Shown: piece by piece, positions 37,409-48,175 of the stretch
Layout: each line of letters starts with the position of its first letter
How positions within the stretch are numbered: position 1 is the first letter of the stretch
Origin: Mycobacterium basiliense
Lineage (GTDB): Bacteria > Actinomycetota > Actinomycetes > Mycobacteriales > Mycobacteriaceae
NCBI RefSeq assembly: GCF_900292015.1
Contig: NZ_LR130759.1
Location: 4,898,001 to 4,962,000 of the forward strand
DNA length: 64,000 bases
Direction: 5' to 3'
Notes under the pieces: model-generated
The model's input: only the letters and a program-made list of their open reading frames with translations
What the model was told of the DNA's origin: nothing
Database searches by the model: none
Translations under genes and position numbers: made by a program

Positions 37409-37480
37409 GCCTCCTTAGCTCAGTGGTAGAGCACTCGCCTTGTAAGCGAGCGGTCGTCAGTTCAATCCTGACAGGGGGCT
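37409..37480 (+). tRNA. tRNA-Thr (anticodon TGT)
   Basis: A full cloverleaf can be drawn. Acceptor stem GCCTCCT/AGGGGGC has one G-T pair, the D arm is AGCTCAGTGGTAGAGC, and the anticodon stem CTCGC/GCGAG has loop CTTGTAA, whose TGT (37,441-37,443) reads ACA and other threonine codons. The T arm is GTCAG-TTCAATC-CTGAC. The discriminator base is T, and CCA is not encoded. The accessory purine-degradation cluster starts 150 bp downstream. Confidence 0.95.
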
Positions 37481-37499
37481 CAAGCTTTCGGGGCTCACG

Positions 37500-37630: not shown

Positions 37631-38797
37631 GTGAAAGTGGTGATCATCGGTGCCGGCATAGGTGGCATGAGCGCCGCGATTGCGCTACGACAAATCGGCA
37701 TCGACACCGAGGTCTACGAGCGTGTCACGGAGAACAAGCCGGTCGGCGCCGCCATATCGGTGTGGTCCAACGGCGTGAAATGCCTCAACTACCTGGGACT
37801 CGCGGAGCAGACGGCACGGCTGGGCGGGATCGTCGACACGATGAGCTACGTCGATGCCCACACCGGAGAGACCATGTGCCGGTTCTCGATGCAGCCGCTC
37901 ATCGATCAGGTCGGCCAGCGCCCGTATCCGATCGCACGCGCCGAATTGCAACAAATGCTGATGGCGGCCTACGGCATCGACGACATCCAGTTCGGCACGA
38001 CCATGGTTGAGGTCGTCGGCGGCGACGGTGCTGCGACCGCGACGTTCGCCGACGGCACCACCGCGAGTGCCGACGCCGTGATCGGCGCCGACGGTGCGAA
38101 CTCGATCACCCGGGAATACGTGCTCGGCCGGCCGGTTACCCGGCGCTACGCCGGCTACGTCAACTTCAACGGCCTGGTGGAAGCCGACGACGCCATCGGC
38201 CCCGCCACCGAGTGGACCATGCATGTCGGCGACGGCAAGCGGGTTTCGGCGATGCCGGTCTCCGGGGGCCGGTTCTACTACTTTTTCGACGTGGTCGAGC
38301 CCGAGGGCCGGCCTTTCAAAAAGGGATCCGCACGCGAGGTGCTACGCCAGCAGTTCGCCGGTTGGGCTCCAGGCGTGCAGGCATTGATCGACAAACTCGA
38401 CCCGATGACCACCAACCGGGTCGAGATCCTCGACGTGGACCCGTTTCACACCTGGGTCAAGGGGCGCGTCGCCGTGCTCGGCGATGCCGCCCACAACACC
38501 ACTCCCGACATCGGGCAGGGCGGATGCTCCGCGATGGAAGACGCGGTGGCACTGCAGTGGGCGTTCAAGGACAACCCCACCGACGTTGACGCCGCGCTGG
38601 CCGCCTATCAGGCCAGTCGCACCGAACGCGCCGGCGATCTGGTGTTGCGGGCCCGAAAACGTTGCGATCTCATCCATGCCAAGAACCCCGAGACCACTGC
38701 GGCCTGGTACGAGGAGCTGCGAAACGAAGACGGCACCAACATCATTCGCGGGCTCGTCGCCAGCATCATGGGTGGGCCGCTCACCCCGCTGAGTTGA
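37631..38797 (+). CDS. hpxO: FAD-dependent urate hydroxylase, HpxO-type
   Basis: 388 aa from GTG 37,631 with GGAGG ten bases upstream. Group A flavin monooxygenase: 'VVIIGAGIGGMSAAIAL' (FAD), 'IGADGANS' (DG motif) and 'VAVLGDAAHNTTPDIGQGG' (GD motif). Stretches such as 'KPVGAAISVWSNGVKCLNYLG', 'RRYAGYVNFNGLVE' and 'DPMTTNRVEI' agree closely with Klebsiella HpxO as I recall it, an enzyme that turns urate into 5-hydroxyisourate with NADH and O2. The next genes encode the enzymes just before and after this step, which supports the call. It converges on the molybdenum hydroxylase with a 17-bp overlap. Confidence 0.9.
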   Translation: MKVVIIGAGIGGMSAAIALRQIGIDTEVYERVTENKPVGAAISVWSNGVKCLNYLGLAEQTARLGGIVDTMSYVDAHTGETMCRFSMQPLIDQVGQRPYPIARAELQQMLMAAYGIDDIQFGTTMVEVVGGDGAATATFADGTTASADAVIGADGANSITREYVLGRPVTRRYAGYVNFNGLVEADDAIGPATEWTMHVGDGKRVSAMPVSGGRFYYFFDVVEPEGRPFKKGSAREVLRQQFAGWAPGVQALIDKLDPMTTNRVEILDVDPFHTWVKGRVAVLGDAAHNTTPDIGQGGCSAMEDAVALQWAFKDNPTDVDAALAAYQASRTERAGDLVLRARKRCDLIHAKNPETTAAWYEELRNEDGTNIIRGLVASIMGGPLTPLS

Positions 38798-41483
38798 TCG
38801 ACCGCCACACTCGGGCCGCAGTCATCGGCAGCCGAGTTACCCGGGCACCGCAGGCACGGGCGATCGCGTTGGCAAGCGCGGGCGCCACCGGGTTGTAGGG
38901 CGATTCAGCCATCGATTTCGCGCCCAACGGACCGAACTCGTCGAAGGTATCGGCGAAGTACACCTCGGTGATCGGCACGTCGGCGAACTGCGGAATGTGA
39001 TAATCGCGCAGCGTCTGGGTAAGCACCCTGCCGTCGGCACCGATCTGCAGTTCCTCATAAAGCGCGGAGCCGATCGCCTGCGCCACACCGCCTTCCACCT
39101 GCCCGCGGCACTGCTCCGGGTTCATCACCACACCGGCGTCGGCTGCCTGAACGGACTGCAAGATCTCCACCTGGCCGGTAGCCGTGTTCACCGCAACCCG
39201 AAAGGCGTGCACGTTGAACGACACCGACCGTTGTCTCCCGTCGTGGTGTCCCTGGCCGGTCAACGGCATCGGCAGCTGCGCGAACCCCACCAGCTGGTCC
39301 CCGCACTGCACTCCGTGCGGGCCAAGTACACAGTCCTGCGGTGACATTCCCGCCGCCTCGGCGGCGGCCGCGACGATACGGGTGCGCAACTGGTGTGCCG
39401 CGGCCAGCGCCGCCCGTCCAGCGACCACGGTTCCCGCCGAGCCGAATGCCCCGGTGTCGTGATCGACGACGTCGGTGTCGGACTGGCGGATCGTCACCCG
39501 GTCGATGGTGGTGCTCAGGGCCGTGGCGACCAGCTGCGCATGCACGGTGGTGGTGCCGTTGCCGAACTCCGAGGTGCCCACGCCGAGGGTGTAGACCCCG
39601 CCGTCATCAACCGAGATTTCGGCGGAGGCAAGATGCCCGTTCGGGGGCACCGTCGCGATCATGGCCAGTGCCATGCCCTCCCCGACTCGCCAGTGCTCGC
39701 CGGCCGGCGCCGGTCGCCCGCCGCGGCGCAACGCATCCTGGGCCAGGTCCAGACATTGATCCAGCCCATAGCTGCCGAACATCAGGTCGTTCTCACCGGC
39801 ATGGGCGTCGATGAACGGATCGCCGGGCACCACCACGTTGCGGCGCCGGAATTCGAACGCGTCGATGCCCAGTCGTTGCGCCAGCACGTCGAGCGCCGAC
39901 TCCACCGCGAAGCTCATCTGCCCTACGCCGTAGCCGCGGAACGCCCCAGACGGCATGTTGTTGGTGTACACGGCTTGGGCGTCGACACGCTTGTTCGCGC
40001 AGCGGTACACCGACACCGACTCGCCGCAACCGTGGAACAGCACGCCCGGACCGTGGTTTCCGTAGGCCCCGGTATCCGTCAGCACGTCGACCGCCAGCGC
40101 GGTCAACACCCCCTCACCGTCGGCCGCTACGGTGACGTCGATGCGGTAGGGGTGGCGGCACGTCGCCCGGACGAACTCGTCGACACGGGTGAACTCGTAG
40201 CGCACCGGCCGGCCCAGTCTCAGCACGGCCAACGTCACCAGGTCCTCGGTGAGCATCTCCTGTTTGCCGCCGAATCCGCCGCCGACCCGCTTGGTGAAAA
40301 CGTGCACCTGGTCGCGGTCCAGCCCGAAGACGTGACACAGTTCGTCGCGGACCAGAAACGGTGTCTGGGAACTGGTCCGAATCACCAGCCGCCCGAGGCT
40401 GTCTCGCCACCCGGTGCAGCCATGGGTTTCGAGGTGGGCCGGCTGCACTCGGGCGGTCTGCCACCGTCCGCGCACCACCGCTCCGCCGGAGGCCTCCGCG
40501 GCAGCAATGCCGGCTTCGACATCGCCGGTGCCGCCATGTAATTCGGCGACCAAGTTGCGCGCCGGGTCGGCGATGCGGGCCTGGCCGCCCTTGTCGGCGT
40601 GCAAGAGCACCGCGCCGGGCGCCCGGGCCTGCTCCGGTTCGAACACGGCCGGCAGTTCCTCGTACTCGATCTGGATCGCCCGGCAAGCTTTTTCGGCGAC
40701 CGCCACGCTGTCGGCGACCACCGCCGCGACCCGCTGTCCGATGAAGCGAACGGTGCGGTCCAGCACATAGGTGTCGTCGGGGTCGTCGGTGCGCATCTCG
40801 TGGCGCGCGGTGGAGAACGCAACGGGTGGGCTGTCGTGGTGGGTGAGGATCAAATGGACGCCGGGCATCGCAGCGGCCACCGTGGTGTCGATCGAGGTGA
40901 TGCGGGCGTGCGCGAGCGGGCTGCCGAGCACGGCCAGGTGCAGCAGGTCCTCGGGCGCATCGTCCATGGTGTACGACTCGGTGCCGGTCACCACCCGCAG
41001 CTCCGCAGGCGCGCCGATCGAACGACCGGCGTCGGATCCGCTGGACTTCTCGACGTTGACCCTGCCCTCCAACGCATCCAAGATCGCCCGGTAGCCGGCA
41101 CACCGGCACAGATTTCCCTTGAGCTGTTGTGGTAGGTCGGCTAGTTCATCATCACCGAATGTCGACGCGGTGGTCACCATGCCGGCTGTGCAAAACCCGC
41201 ACTGGAAGGCGGCCGCCTCGACGAAGCGCCGCTGCATCGGATGCAGGTCATCGGGAGTGCCCAACCCGGCCACCGTCGTGACCGTGCGGCCCGCCGCACG
41301 AAACGCCGGGAACACGCACGAGTGCACCGCGGACCCGTCGACCAAGACCGAACACGCACCGCAGTCACCGGCGTCGCAGCCCATCTTGACTTCGAAGTGG
41401 CCGTGCTCGCGCAGGAAGGTGCGCAGGCATTGCCCGGCCGCCGGTGTGGCGTCCAGGTCGGCACCGTTGACGGTGAACCTCAT
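38781..41483 (-). CDS. Xanthine dehydrogenase-like molybdenum hydroxylase, fused Fe-S and Mo domains
   Basis: 900 aa from ATG 41,483, overlapping the FAD-subunit stop by 4 bp. Residues ~1-150 carry two [2Fe-2S] sites: plant-type 'GCDAGDCGACSVLVDG' and 'CGFCTAGM ... NLCRCAGY'. The rest is the molybdopterin domain with 'FIGQRVAAVVADS', 'GGGFGGKQE' and 'GTSEFGNGTTTVH', and the catalytic-Glu region 'GAKSMAESPYNPVAP', a variant of the common GxKGxGE. It should hydroxylate a purine such as hypoxanthine or xanthine to urate. The substrate is inferred from the urate-to-allantoin genes around it. Fe-S fused to Mo with FAD on a separate chain is a less usual subunit split. Confidence 0.88.
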   Translation of the reverse strand: MRFTVNGADLDATPAAGQCLRTFLREHGHFEVKMGCDAGDCGACSVLVDGSAVHSCVFPAFRAAGRTVTTVAGLGTPDDLHPMQRRFVEAAAFQCGFCTAGMVTTASTFGDDELADLPQQLKGNLCRCAGYRAILDALEGRVNVEKSSGSDAGRSIGAPAELRVVTGTESYTMDDAPEDLLHLAVLGSPLAHARITSIDTTVAAAMPGVHLILTHHDSPPVAFSTARHEMRTDDPDDTYVLDRTVRFIGQRVAAVVADSVAVAEKACRAIQIEYEELPAVFEPEQARAPGAVLLHADKGGQARIADPARNLVAELHGGTGDVEAGIAAAEASGGAVVRGRWQTARVQPAHLETHGCTGWRDSLGRLVIRTSSQTPFLVRDELCHVFGLDRDQVHVFTKRVGGGFGGKQEMLTEDLVTLAVLRLGRPVRYEFTRVDEFVRATCRHPYRIDVTVAADGEGVLTALAVDVLTDTGAYGNHGPGVLFHGCGESVSVYRCANKRVDAQAVYTNNMPSGAFRGYGVGQMSFAVESALDVLAQRLGIDAFEFRRRNVVVPGDPFIDAHAGENDLMFGSYGLDQCLDLAQDALRRGGRPAPAGEHWRVGEGMALAMIATVPPNGHLASAEISVDDGGVYTLGVGTSEFGNGTTTVHAQLVATALSTTIDRVTIRQSDTDVVDHDTGAFGSAGTVVAGRAALAAAHQLRTRIVAAAAEAAGMSPQDCVLGPHGVQCGDQLVGFAQLPMPLTGQGHHDGRQRSVSFNVHAFRVAVNTATGQVEILQSVQAADAGVVMNPEQCRGQVEGGVAQAIGSALYEELQIGADGRVLTQTLRDYHIPQFADVPITEVYFADTFDEFGPLGAKSMAESPYNPVAPALANAIARACGARVTRLPMTAARVWRSINSAG

Positions 41484-42304
41484 GTCAGCTCGGCCAGGAT
41501 CTGCTCGGCCAGCACCAGGCTCACCGCTGCCCGCCAATCGGGATCGCCGTGTGCATCGCGGGTCCAGGCGCGGTCGGGAATGCCGGCGTGCGAGGCCCGC
41601 AGCTCCTCGACATCGGGGAGGGTAGGGAACTCAAACACCAAGGGGCGCATGGTAGCCGCCGTGATCGACAGCACGAAGCCGCCGCCATCCGACTCGGGGG
41701 TGCGACGGCCGATCACCACGATGCCGGAACGTCCCAGCGCGGACGAGGCAAGCTTGCGGAAGGCGGTACGAGCCCGCAACGCGGCGGCCGGCAGGTGAAC
41801 TGAGCGCAGCACGTCGCCCGGCGCGAGCACATTGGTGCCCTGTCCGGTGACGAATTCCGCTACTGGCAGCGTGTAATCGTTGCCATCGGCGCGCCACACC
41901 GTCACCCTTGCGTCCAGCGCAGACAGCAGGGAGATCATCGCGCCAGCCGGAAAGGACAGGCACACATTGCCGCCGATGGTGGCGGTACGCCAGATCTTGG
42001 CCGACGCCAGCATCGCGGTGCAACACTGATACAGCAATGGACCGGCCGCCCATGCGGCGGGTAGCCGCCGCGATAGGACCGAAACCTCGGCGAGCGTGCA
42101 CGTCGCGGCCAGTTCAATACCATTGTCACTCAACGTTATCGGCTGCCAGCCCAAGCCGGTGATATCGACCAGGCGATGGATGTGTACGTTCGGTTCGGAA
42201 AACAACCAGGTCCCGCCGGCGAGGATGGCGTCGGTGGGCCCCAGCGGCCACAGCTGCTCGCGGCTGCTGGGGATGCTGACCGTTTCGACTGAATTGAGAT
42301 CCAT
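41480..42304 (-). CDS. Xanthine dehydrogenase FAD-binding subunit
   Basis: 274 aa from ATG 42,304, sharing one base with the previous stop (TGATG). CO-dehydrogenase flavoprotein-type domain: 'AILAGGTWLF' is the FAD-binding loop, 'GNVCLSFPAGAM' the second loop, and 'FRKLASSALGRSGIVVIG' leads into the C-terminal domain. It passes electrons from the Fe-S centres of the fused large subunit to NAD+ or another acceptor. It lies between that gene and the 5-hydroxyisourate hydrolase in one tightly overlapped operon. Confidence 0.9.
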   Translation of the reverse strand: MDLNSVETVSIPSSREQLWPLGPTDAILAGGTWLFSEPNVHIHRLVDITGLGWQPITLSDNGIELAATCTLAEVSVLSRRLPAAWAAGPLLYQCCTAMLASAKIWRTATIGGNVCLSFPAGAMISLLSALDARVTVWRADGNDYTLPVAEFVTGQGTNVLAPGDVLRSVHLPAAALRARTAFRKLASSALGRSGIVVIGRRTPESDGGGFVLSITAATMRPLVFEFPTLPDVEELRASHAGIPDRAWTRDAHGDPDWRAAVSLVLAEQILAELT

Positions 42305-42624
42305 CAACTGCCTCGGTAGGTCGAGTACGCATACGGCGACAGCAGCAGCGGCACGTGGTAGTGGGCGTCGGCGTCGGTGACCTCGAAGGCGACCACCACC
42401 TCCGGATAGAACCCGACCACACCGCGACCGGTGAAGTAGGCGCCGGTGTCGAAACGCAGTCGGTAGATCCCGGCCACCAACGACGTCCCAAACGATCTGA
42501 CCCGACCGTCATCATCGGTGTGGCCGGTGGCCAGGATCGTTCCGGCGCCGTCGGTGAGGTGCACGGCGACTCCGGCCGCGGGTCGACCGCTCACGGCGTC
42601 TAGCACATGCGTCGAAAGGCTCAT
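42304..42624 (-). CDS. uraH: 5-Hydroxyisourate hydrolase (transthyretin-related)
   Basis: 106 aa. It starts 'MSLSTHVLDAVSGRPAAGVAV' (family signature with catalytic His), continues with 'YRLRFDTGAYF' and 'FYPEVVVAFEV ... HYHVPLLLSPYAYSTYRGS', and ends with the YRGS C-terminus that marks true hydrolases and separates them from transthyretin. It hydrolyses 5-hydroxyisourate, the HpxO product, to OHCU. It overlaps the FAD subunit by one base. Confidence 0.97.
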   Translation of the reverse strand: MSLSTHVLDAVSGRPAAGVAVHLTDGAGTILATGHTDDDGRVRSFGTSLVAGIYRLRFDTGAYFTGRGVVGFYPEVVVAFEVTDADAHYHVPLLLSPYAYSTYRGS

Positions 42625-42661
42625 GGGTTCACCATGCCAGGCCAGCAGCGCAGTGCGGCGC

Positions 42662-43165
42662 CTACCCGAGCTCGCGCAGCAGGCGCTCCAGCCGCAGCCG
42701 GGTGATCTTGGCCAGTTCGTTGCGCATCACCCGGCGCTCGGTTTCCGGATCATGGTCGAGTCTTTGGGTCAGGTTCCCGAGCAATTCTTCGGCGGACCGT
42801 CCGCTGGCGCACACCAAGAAGATGTAGCCGAACTTGTCCTCGTACTTGCGGTTCTTCTCGGCGAGCTCGGCTCGCACGTCATCGTCGGCGTCGATGACGT
42901 GGGCCTGCTCACGCGCCGAGGACGCGTTGTCGACGTCGGCACCGATGCGCGGGTGGCCGTCCAGCGCGGCGTCGATCTCGGCCTCGGGCAGCTCGGCCAG
43001 CACCCGGCCCGCACGGTCCAGCAGCGCATCGACACCATCGAACGGCGCACCGGCCAGCACCCTGCGCGCCCAGATCGTCGTCGAGCACACGCCGAGCAAT
43101 AGGCGCATTCGCTGGCGATCCGGGAGGCGATTGAACCCATCAACGCCCAAGGCGGGCTTCGTCAT
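42662..43165 (-). CDS. uraD: OHCU decarboxylase
   Basis: 167 aa from ATG 43,165 (a TTG six bases upstream is open). All-helical OHCU decarboxylase: it contains 'DGHPRIGADV' (the HPRIG catalytic motif), an acidic partner in 'REQAHVIDADD' and 'KFGYIFLVCASGRSAEELL' (substrate pocket FGYxFLVCASG). It converts 2-oxo-4-hydroxy-4-carboxy-5-ureidoimidazoline to S-allantoin. It lies 37 bp upstream of uraH and 26 bp after the sulfatase stop, all on the same strand. Confidence 0.95.
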   Translation of the reverse strand: MTKPALGVDGFNRLPDRQRMRLLLGVCSTTIWARRVLAGAPFDGVDALLDRAGRVLAELPEAEIDAALDGHPRIGADVDNASSAREQAHVIDADDDVRAELAEKNRKYEDKFGYIFLVCASGRSAEELLGNLTQRLDHDPETERRVMRNELAKITRLRLERLLRELG

Positions 43166-43191
43166 CTGCAACGGCTCGCACTTTCAGCCGA

Positions 43192-45591
43192 TCATTGCTT
43201 GGCCATGGCCACGTTGAACCGATCCTCCGCGGTGATCAGGTGGTCGTGGCCGTCTTCGGCGAGATCGATCTGTACCCAATCGATGCCTCCGGTGAACGCG
43301 TTGCCGGTGGGCCCGTAGTCCGGCGAAGCGGGCGAGCCGGTATCGCGCCCGACATCGCAGGCCTCGTCGGCGGAGAAGGCCATTGGTTGGGTGCGTTCGA
43401 CCCGTCCCTTTCCGACGGCTTCGCCGTCGTAAAAGAGCGTGACATCGCCACCCTTTCCCAAACCGCCTCCGTCGTAGGCGAATTCCATCCGGACCTGGTG
43501 TTTGCCGGCGGGGATGTTCTTGGTCGCCGCCACCAGGTAGTGATCGATGCCCAGGAAGTTGTAGCAATACTTGAGCTTGCCTTCGTGGGCGTACAGCGTC
43601 CAGCCGCCGGCGCTGCCGCCCTGGGTGGTAATCACCCCGCTGACCCCGCCCTTTGGCACCGCCACCTCGGCGGTCACCGAGTGTGATTTGTTCTTGATAT
43701 TCAACACGCACCATTCACTGACGCGCATGCCATTGAACAGCACCTGGCTGTTTCCCCGTACCAGCTGCGGCCGACCGGCGATTTCGGGGTTGATCCGCTC
43801 AAAACCGCGATCATCAAGCGGGACGACGTTGTACTTGGTTGCCTCGATGAGCCAAAGCCGTTGCAGCTCAGCAAGTTTTGCTGGGTTTTCGGCCGCCAGG
43901 TTGTGAGCCTGGGTCCAGTCGTCGGGGGCGTACAGTTCCCACACATCATCGTCGAACGGCGGCGGGACGTCGGCCTTCCACGGGGTGCGGTGCTTGGTCA
44001 CCGCCGTCCACCCCTGGAAGTAGATGCCGCGGTTGCCCATCATCTCGAAATACTGGACCTCGTGTGTCTCCGGTGCCTGCGCTGTACGCAAGGTCGACAT
44101 CATGCTCACCCCTTCCAGCGGCGCCTGGGTTATCCCGTTCACCGAATACGGTGCCGGCAGGCCGGCTGCCTCCAGGATCGTCGGGGCCACGTCGATCACG
44201 TGATGGAACTGATTTCGCATCCCGCCCTTGTCCGCCAGCCCGGCCGGCCAGTGCACAATCGTGCCGTTGCGGGTGCCGCCCCAGTGCGAGGCGACCTGCT
44301 TGGTCCACTGGTAGGGCGCGCAGAGGGCATGCGCCCAGCCGACGGCGTAGTGGTTGTAGGCATCCGGGGTTCCGAAGTGAGCAATCTTGGACAGCAAAAA
44401 CTCCGTCGTCTCGATCCCGGGCAGACCGTTGAGCGTCGTCATCTCGTTGAAGCAGCCGTTGAGCGTGCCCTCGGCCGAGGCGCCGTTGTCGCCGATGATG
44501 TAGTAGATGAGCGTGTCGTCGAGGACGCCGAGGTCGGCGATGGCGTCCACCACGCGGCCCACCTCATGATCGGTCTGCTCGAGGAACCCGGCATAGATCT
44601 CCATCTGCCTGGCCAGCACCGGTCTGAGCTCGTCGGACATCTCGTCCCAGGCGGGGATCTCGTCGTGGCGCTTGGTCAGTTCGGCGTCTTTGGGCACCAC
44701 CCCGAGTTTCTTCTGCGCCTTGAGAGTCTTCTCCCGCAGCACGTCCCAGCCGTCGTCGAACTTGCCCTGGTACTTGTCCGACCACTTCCTGGGCACGTGA
44801 TGTGGCGCATGGGTCGCACCGGGCGCGAAATACATGAAAAACGGCTTGTCCGGCATCAGCGCCTTTTGTTGGCGCACCCAGGTGATCGCTCGATCCGCTA
44901 GATCCTCGGTGAGCGTGTAGCCCTCTTCCGGAGTCTTCGGCGGCTCCACCGCAGTGGTGCCCTCGTACAGACCCGGGTAGTACTGATTGGCCTCGCCACC
45001 GACGAAACCGTAGAAGTATTCGAACCCAGAACCCGTCGGCCACTGATGGAATGGACCCATCGGGGTGACCTCCCACCCCGGCACCTCGTGACACTTGCCG
45101 AATTGTGCGGTGGAGTAGCCGTTGAGCTTCAAGGTCTCGGCTATGGGTGCCTTCTCCTTGGGCCTGATGCTGTTGTTACCGGGCGCCGAGGTGGCCATCT
45201 CGGTGATCGCCCCCATCCCGACCGAGTGGTGGTTGCGGCCGGTCAACAATGCTTGCCGGGTGGGTGAGCACAGCGCGGTGGTGTGGAACCGGTTGAGCTT
45301 GAGACCGCCGGCCGCCAGCCGCTCGGCCACCGGCGTGTGACATGGTCCACCAAACGCCGACGACGCGCCGAAACCGACATCGTCGATCAATACGATGAGA
45401 ACGTTCGGCGCGCCCTGCGGGGGGCGCAGTTCCTTGATCGGTGGGTATTTGGTGTTGGGATCTTTGGCATCGTAGGTGGTCAACCCGACGTGCTTGGGGT
45501 CCGGGATGGGCAAGTGCTCTCTGGCCACACGGGGCTCGGGGGGCTCGGTGAGCTGGGCCTTGGTTGGCGACTTCTTCGCTGCTCTTGTCAT
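43192..45591 (-). CDS. Large arylsulfatase (AtsB/AtsD-like)
   Basis: 799 aa from ATG 45,591, which has GAGGAG upstream. The sulfatase metal-binding start is 'NVLIVLIDDVGFG', followed by the formylglycine motif 'CSPTRQALLTGRN' (Cys108). Further ligands lie in 'YFAPGATHAPHHVP' and 'IGDNGAS'. Residues ~580-799 add a C-terminal beta-sandwich domain ('GGVSGVITTQGGSAGGW...'), as in the long mycobacterial enzymes AtsB and AtsD. The Cys must be converted by a formylglycine-generating enzyme not in this window. No signal peptide is seen. It could be transcribed with the purine genes downstream. The substrate is unknown. Confidence 0.92.
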   Translation of the reverse strand: MTRAAKKSPTKAQLTEPPEPRVAREHLPIPDPKHVGLTTYDAKDPNTKYPPIKELRPPQGAPNVLIVLIDDVGFGASSAFGGPCHTPVAERLAAGGLKLNRFHTTALCSPTRQALLTGRNHHSVGMGAITEMATSAPGNNSIRPKEKAPIAETLKLNGYSTAQFGKCHEVPGWEVTPMGPFHQWPTGSGFEYFYGFVGGEANQYYPGLYEGTTAVEPPKTPEEGYTLTEDLADRAITWVRQQKALMPDKPFFMYFAPGATHAPHHVPRKWSDKYQGKFDDGWDVLREKTLKAQKKLGVVPKDAELTKRHDEIPAWDEMSDELRPVLARQMEIYAGFLEQTDHEVGRVVDAIADLGVLDDTLIYYIIGDNGASAEGTLNGCFNEMTTLNGLPGIETTEFLLSKIAHFGTPDAYNHYAVGWAHALCAPYQWTKQVASHWGGTRNGTIVHWPAGLADKGGMRNQFHHVIDVAPTILEAAGLPAPYSVNGITQAPLEGVSMMSTLRTAQAPETHEVQYFEMMGNRGIYFQGWTAVTKHRTPWKADVPPPFDDDVWELYAPDDWTQAHNLAAENPAKLAELQRLWLIEATKYNVVPLDDRGFERINPEIAGRPQLVRGNSQVLFNGMRVSEWCVLNIKNKSHSVTAEVAVPKGGVSGVITTQGGSAGGWTLYAHEGKLKYCYNFLGIDHYLVAATKNIPAGKHQVRMEFAYDGGGLGKGGDVTLFYDGEAVGKGRVERTQPMAFSADEACDVGRDTGSPASPDYGPTGNAFTGGIDWVQIDLAEDGHDHLITAEDRFNVAMAKQ

Positions 45592-45665
45592 CCCTATCTC
45601 CTCGTCAATCCGCTTTACTACCAAGGTAACTGGCGCTCACACTTACCCTGGGGCCGCGAGCACCG

Positions 45666-46445
45666 TTATCGGTTCTTACGCGCCAGGAACGCCTGCATAT
45701 GCTGTTGCGGCTCGCCGGTAAGAAACGCGAGGCCGAACTGCTCGACGCTGTCCTCGATTGCCCCGTGAACGGTCATATCGAACCACTTGTTGAGTAGCCG
45801 CTTTTGTTGACGGACCGCCTGCGGGCCAAAGCCGGCGAGTCGTGTGGTGAGTTCGGTGATCCTGTGGTCCAGCGCGTCGGCGGCAACGACTTCGTGTACC
45901 AGGCCCCAGCCGGCCGCGGTATCGGCGCCAATCGTCTCGCCGGTCAGCAGCAGCCAGGTTGCCCGTGAGGCCCCGATCAGCGCCGGCATCAAGGCCGCAT
46001 GGATCACCGACGGGATTCCCACCGCGACTTCGGGCATGCCGAATTTGGCGCCGGTCTCGGCGATCCGCAAATCACAGCACATCGCGATTTCCAGGCCACC
46101 GCCCAGGCACCACCCAGCGAGCCGGGCGATGACAGGGACCGGACATTCACGAATCGCCTCGCACAGATCCGCGAGTCGGCGAATGAACGCCTCGGCACTG
46201 GACCGGTCAAGGGTGACCATTTCTTTGATATCGGCGCCACCGATGAACGCCTTGTCGCCTCCCCCGCGCAGCACGACCACCCGCACCTCGGGGTCCTGAC
46301 CGATACCGCGGAATGCGTTGGTAAGTGCCGCGATAGCTGCCGTGCCGACAATGTTCAGCGGTGCCGAGTTGAGCAATTCGATGGTGGCCGCGCCGCCGTC
46401 ACGACCGAGTTCGACGAACCGGTTTTCCGTCGCCTCCTCGGTCAC
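45666..46445 (-). CDS. Enoyl-CoA hydratase/isomerase family protein
   Basis: 259 aa from GTG 46,445, overlapping the PE_PGRS stop as GTGA. Crotonase fold: oxyanion-hole segments 'AFIGGADIKEM' and 'RLAGWCLGGGLEIAMCCDLRIAE'. In the second the glutamate of GGGLE matches the first catalytic acid, and 'EVAVGIPSV' replaces the second acid region (usually PE.xLG), so hydratase chemistry is uncertain. A lyase, isomerase or non-classical crotonase is possible. Coupling to a PE_PGRS gene is unusual for this family. Confidence 0.88.
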   Translation of the reverse strand: MTEEATENRFVELGRDGGAATIELLNSAPLNIVGTAAIAALTNAFRGIGQDPEVRVVVLRGGGDKAFIGGADIKEMVTLDRSSAEAFIRRLADLCEAIRECPVPVIARLAGWCLGGGLEIAMCCDLRIAETGAKFGMPEVAVGIPSVIHAALMPALIGASRATWLLLTGETIGADTAAGWGLVHEVVAADALDHRITELTTRLAGFGPQAVRQQKRLLNKWFDMTVHGAIEDSVEQFGLAFLTGEPQQHMQAFLARKNR

Positions 46446-48175
46446 GGGAGCAGGTTGGGCACGCTGGTCGTCAGGCCCCCGGTGGCGCCGCACACGGCGT
46501 TGACCACGTCTTCGGTCATCGCGATCGGGAAGTTGATCGCCGCCGTGCCGACCTCCTCGATGCCATCCCGAACCGCGGTCAAGATGGTTGTCGGATCACC
46601 GGTGAACAGCGAATAGAAAATGTCCCAGCCCGCGTACTGCGGCGCGGTGATCAAGTTACGCACGTCGACGAACAGCTGCGTCGGCAATGTCGCTGGCGCG
46701 ACCGGTATCCCGTCCCAACTGACCATCGTCCAACCACTGGAGGGATTGCCCTCTACCACGACCACGCCGGTGTTGGGCAACGGGTGGGTTAGCAGGAGCA
46801 GCGGATCAGGATTGTCGACGTTCATCATCGTCCCGACCCCGATGGTGAACGCGCTTGAGTAGGCGACGTCGGTGATCTTGCCGTCGGCGGCCAACACCGG
46901 ATTCGCCAGCGCAGCGCTATACATCGTGTCCACGGCGTTGGTGAAGCCCTCGTTGAACACCACCCCGTTGAAGTCGAGGGAGCCGGGGGTCAGCATCGGC
47001 ATGATCGGGAATCCGAGGGTCCACGCCATCGGGCCCACCAGATATAGCAGGCCCGCGGGACTGATCTGCGCAATGCCATCGAAAATGCCGGCACTAATCT
47101 CATTGAGCCCGGCCAACTCGGGAACGGCCGCTATCCCGTACATGGCGGCCAACGGCGCGGCGGTTTCTTGCGTCCTGAGCAACTGCGAGTCGAAGATCCC
47201 GGCGTAGGGGCCCTTCGCGAAGAGCGCGCTGGCGATAGCGTCCGCCTGTAGCTGCCCCTGCGCGGTGAGCGGCGGTCCGGGCACATTGGTGTCGATCAAC
47301 GCTGCCACGTTGCTCGCCGTCTGTCCGTGCCGGACAAAGTCGATCACGATCGACTGGCCGCCGCCGGTGTTGGTAATCCAGCCGGTGGCGGGCTCCCCGA
47401 TAAAGAGACCACCCCGGCCGGCCAACGCGCCGGCGCCACCAGCACCACCGTTGCCGAAGAACAAGGCGTCGCCACCGACACCCCCGACACCTCCCCCACC
47501 GCCGGTGCCGCCGTTACCCATCAGCCAGCCACCGACACCGCCCACACCTCCGGTGCCGCCGCCGAAGCCAGCACCACCGGCGCCGCCGTTGCCGATCAGG
47601 CCGGCGTTTCCGCCGGCGCCGCCCGCGATGGCACCCATGCCCCCGGTGGGGGTATAGCCGGTGCCGCCGTCACCGAACAGGATCCCGCCGGCACCGCCGG
47701 TAGGGTTGGCCGCCGTTCCGGCGGTACCGTTGCCGATCAGCCCACGCCCGAGCAGCAACTCGGTGGGCGCATTGATAACCGGATCTACCGCCTGACCGAA
47801 CGGGCTGGCAATCCACGCTTGACCGACGCTGTGAATCGGACCGTAGACGGCGGTCTGGAACCCGTCGGAAACCGCCGAACCCAGACCGGCGACGATGGTC
47901 GCCTCGGCGCCACCATACGATGCCGCCGCCGCGCTAAGAGTGCGCACGAACTGCCCGTGATACGCCGCCAGCTGCGCCGCCGTCGCCTGATACTCGCGGG
48001 CGTGCGCGCCGAACAACGACGCAATGGCCCCCGACACCTCATCGGCGGCCGCCGCCATCACCTCAGTCGTCGGAATCGCTGCCGCCAGATTGCCGGCGCT
48101 GACTGCCGACCCGATCTGCACCACCTCCGCCGCTACCGTCTCCAACATGTCCGGCGCTACGAGCACAAAAGACAT
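46442..48175 (-). CDS. PE_PGRS protein with C-terminal phosphoglycerate mutase-like domain (PE_PGRS11-like)
   Basis: 577 aa. Residues 1-~95 are the PE domain (MSFVLVAPDMLETVAAEV...), ~145-260 are PGRS repeats (GGAGG, GNGGAGGAG), and ~275-510 are a histidine-phosphatase domain with 'DFVRHGQTASN' (His-283 as phospho-acceptor), 'SQLLRTQETAAPL' and 'THPLPNTGVVVV'. This is the architecture of M. tuberculosis PE_PGRS11 (Rv0754), reported as a surface phosphoglycerate mutase. Export by a type VII system is expected. Downstream, the enoyl-CoA hydratase overlaps it by 4 bp. Confidence 0.93.
   Translation of the reverse strand: MSFVLVAPDMLETVAAEVVQIGSAVSAGNLAAAIPTTEVMAAAADEVSGAIASLFGAHAREYQATAAQLAAYHGQFVRTLSAAAASYGGAEATIVAGLGSAVSDGFQTAVYGPIHSVGQAWIASPFGQAVDPVINAPTELLLGRGLIGNGTAGTAANPTGGAGGILFGDGGTGYTPTGGMGAIAGGAGGNAGLIGNGGAGGAGFGGGTGGVGGVGGWLMGNGGTGGGGGVGGVGGDALFFGNGGAGGAGALAGRGGLFIGEPATGWITNTGGGQSIVIDFVRHGQTASNVAALIDTNVPGPPLTAQGQLQADAIASALFAKGPYAGIFDSQLLRTQETAAPLAAMYGIAAVPELAGLNEISAGIFDGIAQISPAGLLYLVGPMAWTLGFPIMPMLTPGSLDFNGVVFNEGFTNAVDTMYSAALANPVLAADGKITDVAYSSAFTIGVGTMMNVDNPDPLLLLTHPLPNTGVVVVEGNPSSGWTMVSWDGIPVAPATLPTQLFVDVRNLITAPQYAGWDIFYSLFTGDPTTILTAVRDGIEEVGTAAINFPIAMTEDVVNAVCGATGGLTTSVPNLLP

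Follow-up and report, generated by a model that had tools for sequence, protein, structure and literature searches.

The stretch analysed here, called the window below, comprises 64,000 nucleotides of the Mycobacterium basiliense genome (positions 4898001-4962000). It carries a group of purine-catabolic genes beside a tRNA-Thr gene, with the following features (positions counted within the window).

37409..37481, plus strand: tRNA-Thr (TGT), 5' of HpxO, marking the constant border of a variable region
37631..38797, plus strand: HpxO, FAD-dependent urate hydroxylase (urate to 5-hydroxyisourate), 388 aa, assigned by NF033623 and 3rp6
38781..41483, minus strand: fused [2Fe-2S]-molybdopterin chain of a xanthine-dehydrogenase-like molybdenum hydroxylase, 900 aa, assigned by domains and co-occurrence
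41480..42304, minus strand: FAD chain of the molybdenum hydroxylase, 274 aa, assigned by FAD_binding_5
42304..42624, minus strand: UraH, 5-hydroxyisourate hydrolase, 106 aa, assigned by TIGR02962 and a YRGS end
42662..43165, minus strand: UraD, OHCU decarboxylase (yielding allantoin), 167 aa, assigned by TIGR03180 and HPRIG
43192..45624, minus strand: arylsulfatase-like gene, 26 bp upstream of UraD (start according to the list of open reading frames), PF00884 at 203.4 bits

The five reading frames from HpxO to UraD are uninterrupted in the window sequence, and the family matches lie far above chance: HpxO reaches 600.9 bits with the NF033623 equivalog (cut-off 500), UraH 126.7 bits with TIGR02962 (cut-off 87.45) and UraD 162.3 bits with TIGR03180 (cut-off 139.4). 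With frames intact and matches of this strength, chance or artefact as the source of the cluster was ruled out, and the five adjacent genes and enzymes listed in a preliminary description of this DNA are confirmed to that extent. The two sequence signatures that it mentioned are also present: UraH ends in YRGS, as do 2gpz and 2h1x, and UraD contains HPRIG, with H71 and E86 in place. The His of HPRIG and the Glu of REQ, which we take to be the catalytic residues of UraD, are kept in all 57 rows of free UraD proteins, some of them duplicates.

The HpxO gene starts with GTG, immediately preceded by AGGAGG. Its product aligns over its whole length (residues 1-384, E 4.9e-136) with the flavoprotein monooxygenase 3rp6, presumably the HpxO of Klebsiella pneumoniae. 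Both contain the motif GKRVS, which reads GKQVS in 3rp8; we assume the R to be the active-site Arg R204 of HpxO. The preliminary description had HpxO replacing the cofactor-free urate oxidase, and indeed no match to uricase (PF01014) was detected in the M. basiliense genome. In our comparative set of 396 Mycobacterium genomes, 42 encode HpxO above the cut-off and 62 encode uricase.

HpxO runs towards the other four genes, its 3' end overlapping that of the molybdenum gene by 17 bp; the five genes do not form one operon. Since HpxO is separate from the minus-strand operon, joint control of the two is not implied. Within the minus-strand quartet the spacing is tight (a 4-bp overlap, a 1-bp overlap and a 37-bp gap). 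The short gap between UraD and the arylsulfatase-like gene (43166-43191) is such that the latter may share the UraD transcript, and a promoter of the minus-strand genes may lie 5' of it; the sulfatase gene has no known role in the pathway.

On the tRNA side the cluster is flanked by an Rv0756c-like gene with phoPR beyond, and on the other side by an enoyl-CoA hydratase gene and a PE_PGRS-like gene; the designations, and the order of the flanking genes in M. tuberculosis, are presumed. The stretch 46442-48175 we take to encode the PE_PGRS-like protein, whose C-terminal part would resemble phosphoglycerate mutases. We presume M. basiliense to be a close relative of M. tuberculosis, which is not known to carry this five-gene set. 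In all 13 other loci scanned, tRNA-Thr sits beside the Rv0756c-like gene and the sequence beyond the tRNA varies. The arrangement of the window recurs in one genome, G236. Of 78 genomes compared for the Rv0756c-like protein, this one gave the best match (94% identity, the next one 81%). We also considered whether the cluster is an island of recent arrival that duplicated the end of the tRNA, and rejected this: the final 12, 14 and 16 nucleotides of the tRNA are each found a single time in the window. The G+C content of the cluster (0.672; 5.5-kb stretches of the window average 0.647 and reach at most 0.673) is only suggestive of a foreign base composition.

Probable route to allantoin and possible use of its nitrogen

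Judging from these genes and from a second locus near 1.26 Mb, the cluster very probably encodes the upper half of aerobic purine catabolism, down to allantoin, with allantoin carried on by the second locus. In such a route, bases would enter through a xanthine-permease-type transporter encoded elsewhere and the two-chain molybdenum hydroxylase would oxidise hypoxanthine and xanthine to urate. HpxO, given its strong match to a characterised enzyme, would convert urate with NAD(P)H and O2 into 5-hydroxyisourate, and UraH followed by UraD, both with strong family matches, would lead through OHCU to allantoin. A PuuE-type allantoinase and an allantoicase would then yield ureidoglycolate and urea, and the nitrogen could be used. 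The (hypo)xanthine-to-allantoin route proposed in the preliminary description is supported from urate onward; its molybdenum step is supported indirectly, by co-occurrence, no curated xanthine dehydrogenase (XDH) cut-off having been passed. The pathway itself is well known and most of this is known biology; what is gained is that a five-gene list becomes a pathway open to experimental test, its genes dispersed over several loci of a single genome.

The HpxO/hpx route of K. pneumoniae (3rp6; NF033623), as far as the excerpt of PMC4562309 describes it, is expected to share the same urate-to-allantoin chemistry with UraH and UraD, whereas the window cluster lies in Mycobacterium, has a fused FeS-Mo hydroxylase and has its HpxO facing the other genes. 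In M. smegmatis, the excerpts of PMC4617892, PMC3662644 and PMC4222082 place a permease, OHCU decarboxylase, UraH and urate oxidase under consecutive numbers within MSMEG_1293-1298. That run contains uricase, whereas the window cluster contains HpxO and its permease lies about 0.65 Mb away.

The second locus encodes an adenosine deaminase, a DUF6986 protein, an allantoicase (389.5 bits, cut-off 277.9), a PuuE allantoinase (TIGR03212, 508 bits, above its cut-off of 424.6) and an allantoin-permease-like protein, which lies under the NCBIfam cut-offs and above the Pfam one. An AllB allantoinase was also sought in the M. basiliense genome and rejected: the only long match (236.9 bits, TIGR03178 cut-off 357.85) is a dihydroorotase (746.9 bits, cut-off 538). 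We surveyed allantoinases in 80 genomes, namely all 42 with HpxO and 38 of the 62 with uricase, and found AllB above the cut-off in 36 and PuuE in 68. Every HpxO genome has an allantoinase, PuuE in 39 and AllB in the other three (G177, G352 and G388). At least one is present in 36 of the 38 uricase genomes surveyed; neither AllB nor PuuE exceeds its cut-off in G026 and G214.

The same enzymes might serve disposal or redox purposes, with the route stopping at excreted allantoin and supplying no nitrogen. This alternative shares its enzymology with the complete route and the two are not mutually exclusive; as an account of the cluster we consider it unlikely. It has in its favour that purine breakdown up to allantoin frees no nitrogen. 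For this reason nitrogen scavenging, which the preliminary description had assigned to the five genes, needs more than the cluster. It also agrees with the lack of AllB in M. basiliense and with the formation of water rather than peroxide by HpxO, stated in the excerpt of PMC4562309. Against it, PuuE allantoinase, allantoicase and the allantoin-permease-like gene occur together in the genome, and M. smegmatis lives on uric acid as a nitrogen source (excerpt of PMC4222082). The scavenging idea gains from the second locus and from the growth of M. smegmatis on uric acid and guanine.

Returning to the complete route, nitrogen responses are described for the uricase version. Permease, OHCU decarboxylase, UraH, uricase and guanine deaminase of M. 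smegmatis (MSMEG_1293-1296 and 1298) are upregulated under nitrogen limitation according to the excerpt of PMC4617892, and that of PMC4222082 reports that guanine and uric acid support growth in a GlnR-dependent manner and that adenine does not support it. One study maps a site of GlnR binding to the interval from MSMEG_1292 to 1293 (excerpt of PMC3662644); in another, gel shifts revealed no GlnR binding upstream of MSMEG_1293 (excerpt of PMC4222082). Given the nitrogen response and growth of M. smegmatis, the same nitrogen use is likely for the window genome, and by this analogy it is plausible that M. basiliense can use nitrogen from purines. A simple scan with a presumed GlnR-box motif gave nothing convincing: two relatives each have a single weak match upstream of their permease gene, and the window has a loose one upstream of its echA-like gene.

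The DUF6986 protein of the second locus (about 1257651-1258979; L130 7651-8979), distantly similar to HpcH/HpaI aldolases, adjoins allantoicase and PuuE. A homologue in G177 (L134 14040-15317, 45% identical) lies near AllB and an allantoin-permease-like gene. Glyoxylate or ureidoglycolate may be its substrate.

The molybdenum hydroxylase

The fused chain contains the domains Fer2, Fer2_2, Ald_Xan_dh_C, MoCoBD_1 and MoCoBD_2, and the FAD chain contains FAD_binding_5 (74.6 bits, above 27); between them, the two chains have each of the domain types (FeS, Mo and FAD) that the xanthine oxidase family contains. None of the curated XDH equivalog cut-offs (NF043082, NF007426, TIGR02965, TIGR03196 and TIGR03311) was reached by the Mo chain, the scores and cut-offs being 483.8/780, 462.9/916, 239.2/849.5, 335/783.65 and 373.3/830.45. 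Its best NCBIfam model is XdhA, at 483.8 bits; for the FAD chain the best NCBIfam match has 44.5 bits, and all lie far under their cut-offs. The enzyme is XDH-like and outside any named equivalog, and we do not file it as a member of XDH. As no curated cut-off was passed, its XDH role rests on comparative genomics.

It could be, in principle, that the enzyme acts on another N-heterocycle or an aldehyde and is a mere neighbour, with urate coming from uptake or from another dehydrogenase. The missed cut-offs are consistent with this, as is the fact that its two best solved relatives by sequence are the aldehyde oxidoreductases 1dgj and 1sij. In addition, fused relatives with 49-54% identity, the next group, are found in at least 50 genomes (among the matches listed, 21 with uricase, 29 with neither uricase nor HpxO, and none with HpxO), which points to other uses in the wider family. 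The distribution of the orthologues themselves argues strongly the other way. Defined by a score of at least 1090 bits (the next group scores at most 965) and supplemented by three fragments, they occur in all 42 HpxO genomes and in 55 of the 62 uricase genomes (52, plus the 3 fragments), that is in 97 of 104, compared with 1 of the 292 genomes that have neither. This single genome, G274, is an 80%-complete assembly. Fisher's test gives 8e-83, a figure that overstates the case since the genomes are related. The uricase genomes in which no orthologue was detected are G026, G041, G145, G203, G214, G327 and G353.

Gene order also argues against a mere neighbour: in 18 of 19 HpxO loci from named mycobacteria, UraD, UraH, the FAD chain and the Mo chain are all found in the fetched flanks, repeating the order with UraH and HpxO. 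Finally, the Arg of an RGYG motif and a Glu near the C-terminus, presumably substrate-binding or catalytic residues, are conserved in those orthologue rows that extend over these positions. With this evidence on both sides, we regard a different substrate as quite improbable.

The motif residues of the window chain are Q408, R516 and E860, which we take to correspond to bovine E802, R880 and E1261 (active-site Glu, Arg and catalytic Glu); E. coli XdhA has the same residues at the Q and R positions. E. coli XdhA and XdhD belong to the same enzyme family (33% and 30% identity) and have no curated equivalog in common with the window chain. In XdhD, according to its annotation, the Mo and Fe-S parts are fused in a single chain, as they are in the window; at the RGYG motif it has Q where the window chain and XdhA have R. 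By such indirect signs, distribution and motif residues, the enzyme appears to behave like a xanthine dehydrogenase. This provides strong comparative evidence on what is oxidised by a molybdenum hydroxylase for which the curated models offer no name.

Other members of the family were encountered as well. A paralogue in G146 (about 52% identity) outscores the window chain on the XdhA model, with 531.0 bits; this genome is without HpxO above the cut-off, uricase or UraH. Paralogous fused FeS-Mo hydroxylases of about 52% identity are encoded at L135 7478-10195, adjoining a clpB-like gene, and at L136 8049-11369. The HpxO genome G056 has, among the matches listed, a more distant Mo enzyme (43% identity).

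HpxO and uricase behind UraH

HpxO and uricase were found together in none of the 396 genomes, where 6.6 would be expected (hypergeometric 0.0005, uncorrected for kinship). UraH is present in 103 of the 396, which is the union of the HpxO and uricase sets minus only G365, whose uricase match is a fragment. When we looked at positions, we observed that 38 of the 42 HpxO genomes have HpxO as the next gene after UraH, in the same orientation, and that uricase lies directly behind UraH in 54 of the 61 uricase genomes that carry UraH; in the seven exceptions the two genes are less than 6 kb apart in other arrangements. From these positions we infer an in-place exchange of urate-oxidising enzymes behind UraH. 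Alternation of urate oxidases between species is already known (excerpt of PMC4562309); the added observation is an exchange in one slot within one genus, where two unrelated enzymes replace each other.

Four HpxO genomes depart from this order. The gene is inverted only in the window genome and in G236, among the 40 genomes with HpxO and UraH on one contig, and in both it is turned round at an identical spacing of 4676 bases. In G262 and G395, HpxO is on a different contig from UraH, its near flanks are without UraH, and it seems to have moved away. In the lineage of the window the cluster would then lie next to tRNA-Thr and a phoPR-like pair and have its HpxO gene turned round, and in the other HpxO genomes HpxO would fill the uricase slot directly behind UraH (38 of 40).

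A tree of 62 HpxO rows joins the window genome with G236 (support 100/99), and this pair groups with G018, G043 and G183 (96/76), nested within mycobacterial HpxO; such nesting is compatible with either horizontal or vertical origin. That the inverted HpxO has shifted to a different substrate, as its unusual orientation in 2 of the 40 same-contig genomes might suggest, is highly improbable for a full-length protein with such an NF033623 score, placed within mycobacterial HpxO, in a genome without uricase.

We also examined 49 named HpxO loci, whose flanks vary in length. UraH is found in the flanks of 18 of the 19 from named mycobacteria and also in Marinomonas. At E 1e-10, neither UraH nor UraD was matched in the flanks of Mycolicibacterium palauense (L032), of an actinobacterial MAG (L033) and of 22 Gordonia loci (among L047-L080), and UraH was not matched in the few remaining named loci beyond mycobacteria, Marinomonas and Gordonia. 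An HpxO-type operon in mycobacteria was not found described in the open-access literature. In both Gordonia loci scanned (L047 and L052), HpxO adjoins an ESX eccB gene.

A purine permease with a UraD-like domain

The preliminary description had stated that allantoinase, purine permease and XdhC are missing from the window. Indeed, TIGR03178, PF13478, PF00860 and TIGR03212 have no match inside 4898001-4962000, and all their matches in the M. basiliense genome lie outside it. The interpretation given in that description is partly supported: largely right on the chemistry, it was incomplete on the genome context. A purine permease of the xanthine permease family (485.9 bits, cut-off 414.15) with a C-terminal OHCU-decarboxylase-like domain is encoded at 4279923-4281752 of the genome (L100 7851-9755), and further fusions of this kind at L103 15312-17249 and L037 7242-9146. 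The full-length fusion is present in 40 of the 42 HpxO genomes, with at least 76% identity, and was not found in the HpxO genomes G240 and G345. In G236 it sits between the sulfatase gene and UraD, where the window has only its short gap, and it seems to have been lost from there in the window lineage.

At the catalytic positions of UraD, the His is replaced by F or Y and the Glu by D or A in all 26 fusion rows, some of them duplicates. The UraD-like domain could possibly be a sensing or docking domain. An AlphaFold model of the L037 fusion had a mean pLDDT of 37.3 and was discarded. In the open-access literature we found no published description of such a permease-decarboxylase fusion. A permease with an inactive-looking enzyme domain offers a lead on the coupling of purine uptake to breakdown. 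We tentatively put forward a broader scheme, which is possible but doubtful as a whole: mycobacteria might have a common purine operon in which the place for urate oxidation is interchangeable, filled by uricase or HpxO and never both, and which is served by an unnamed fused-chain XDH subfamily and by a permease with a dead UraD domain, perhaps sensing or gathering intermediates at the membrane.

Two XdhC-like proteins are encoded near 0.62 Mb in the genome, beside a CoxG-like gene and another molybdenum hydroxylase.
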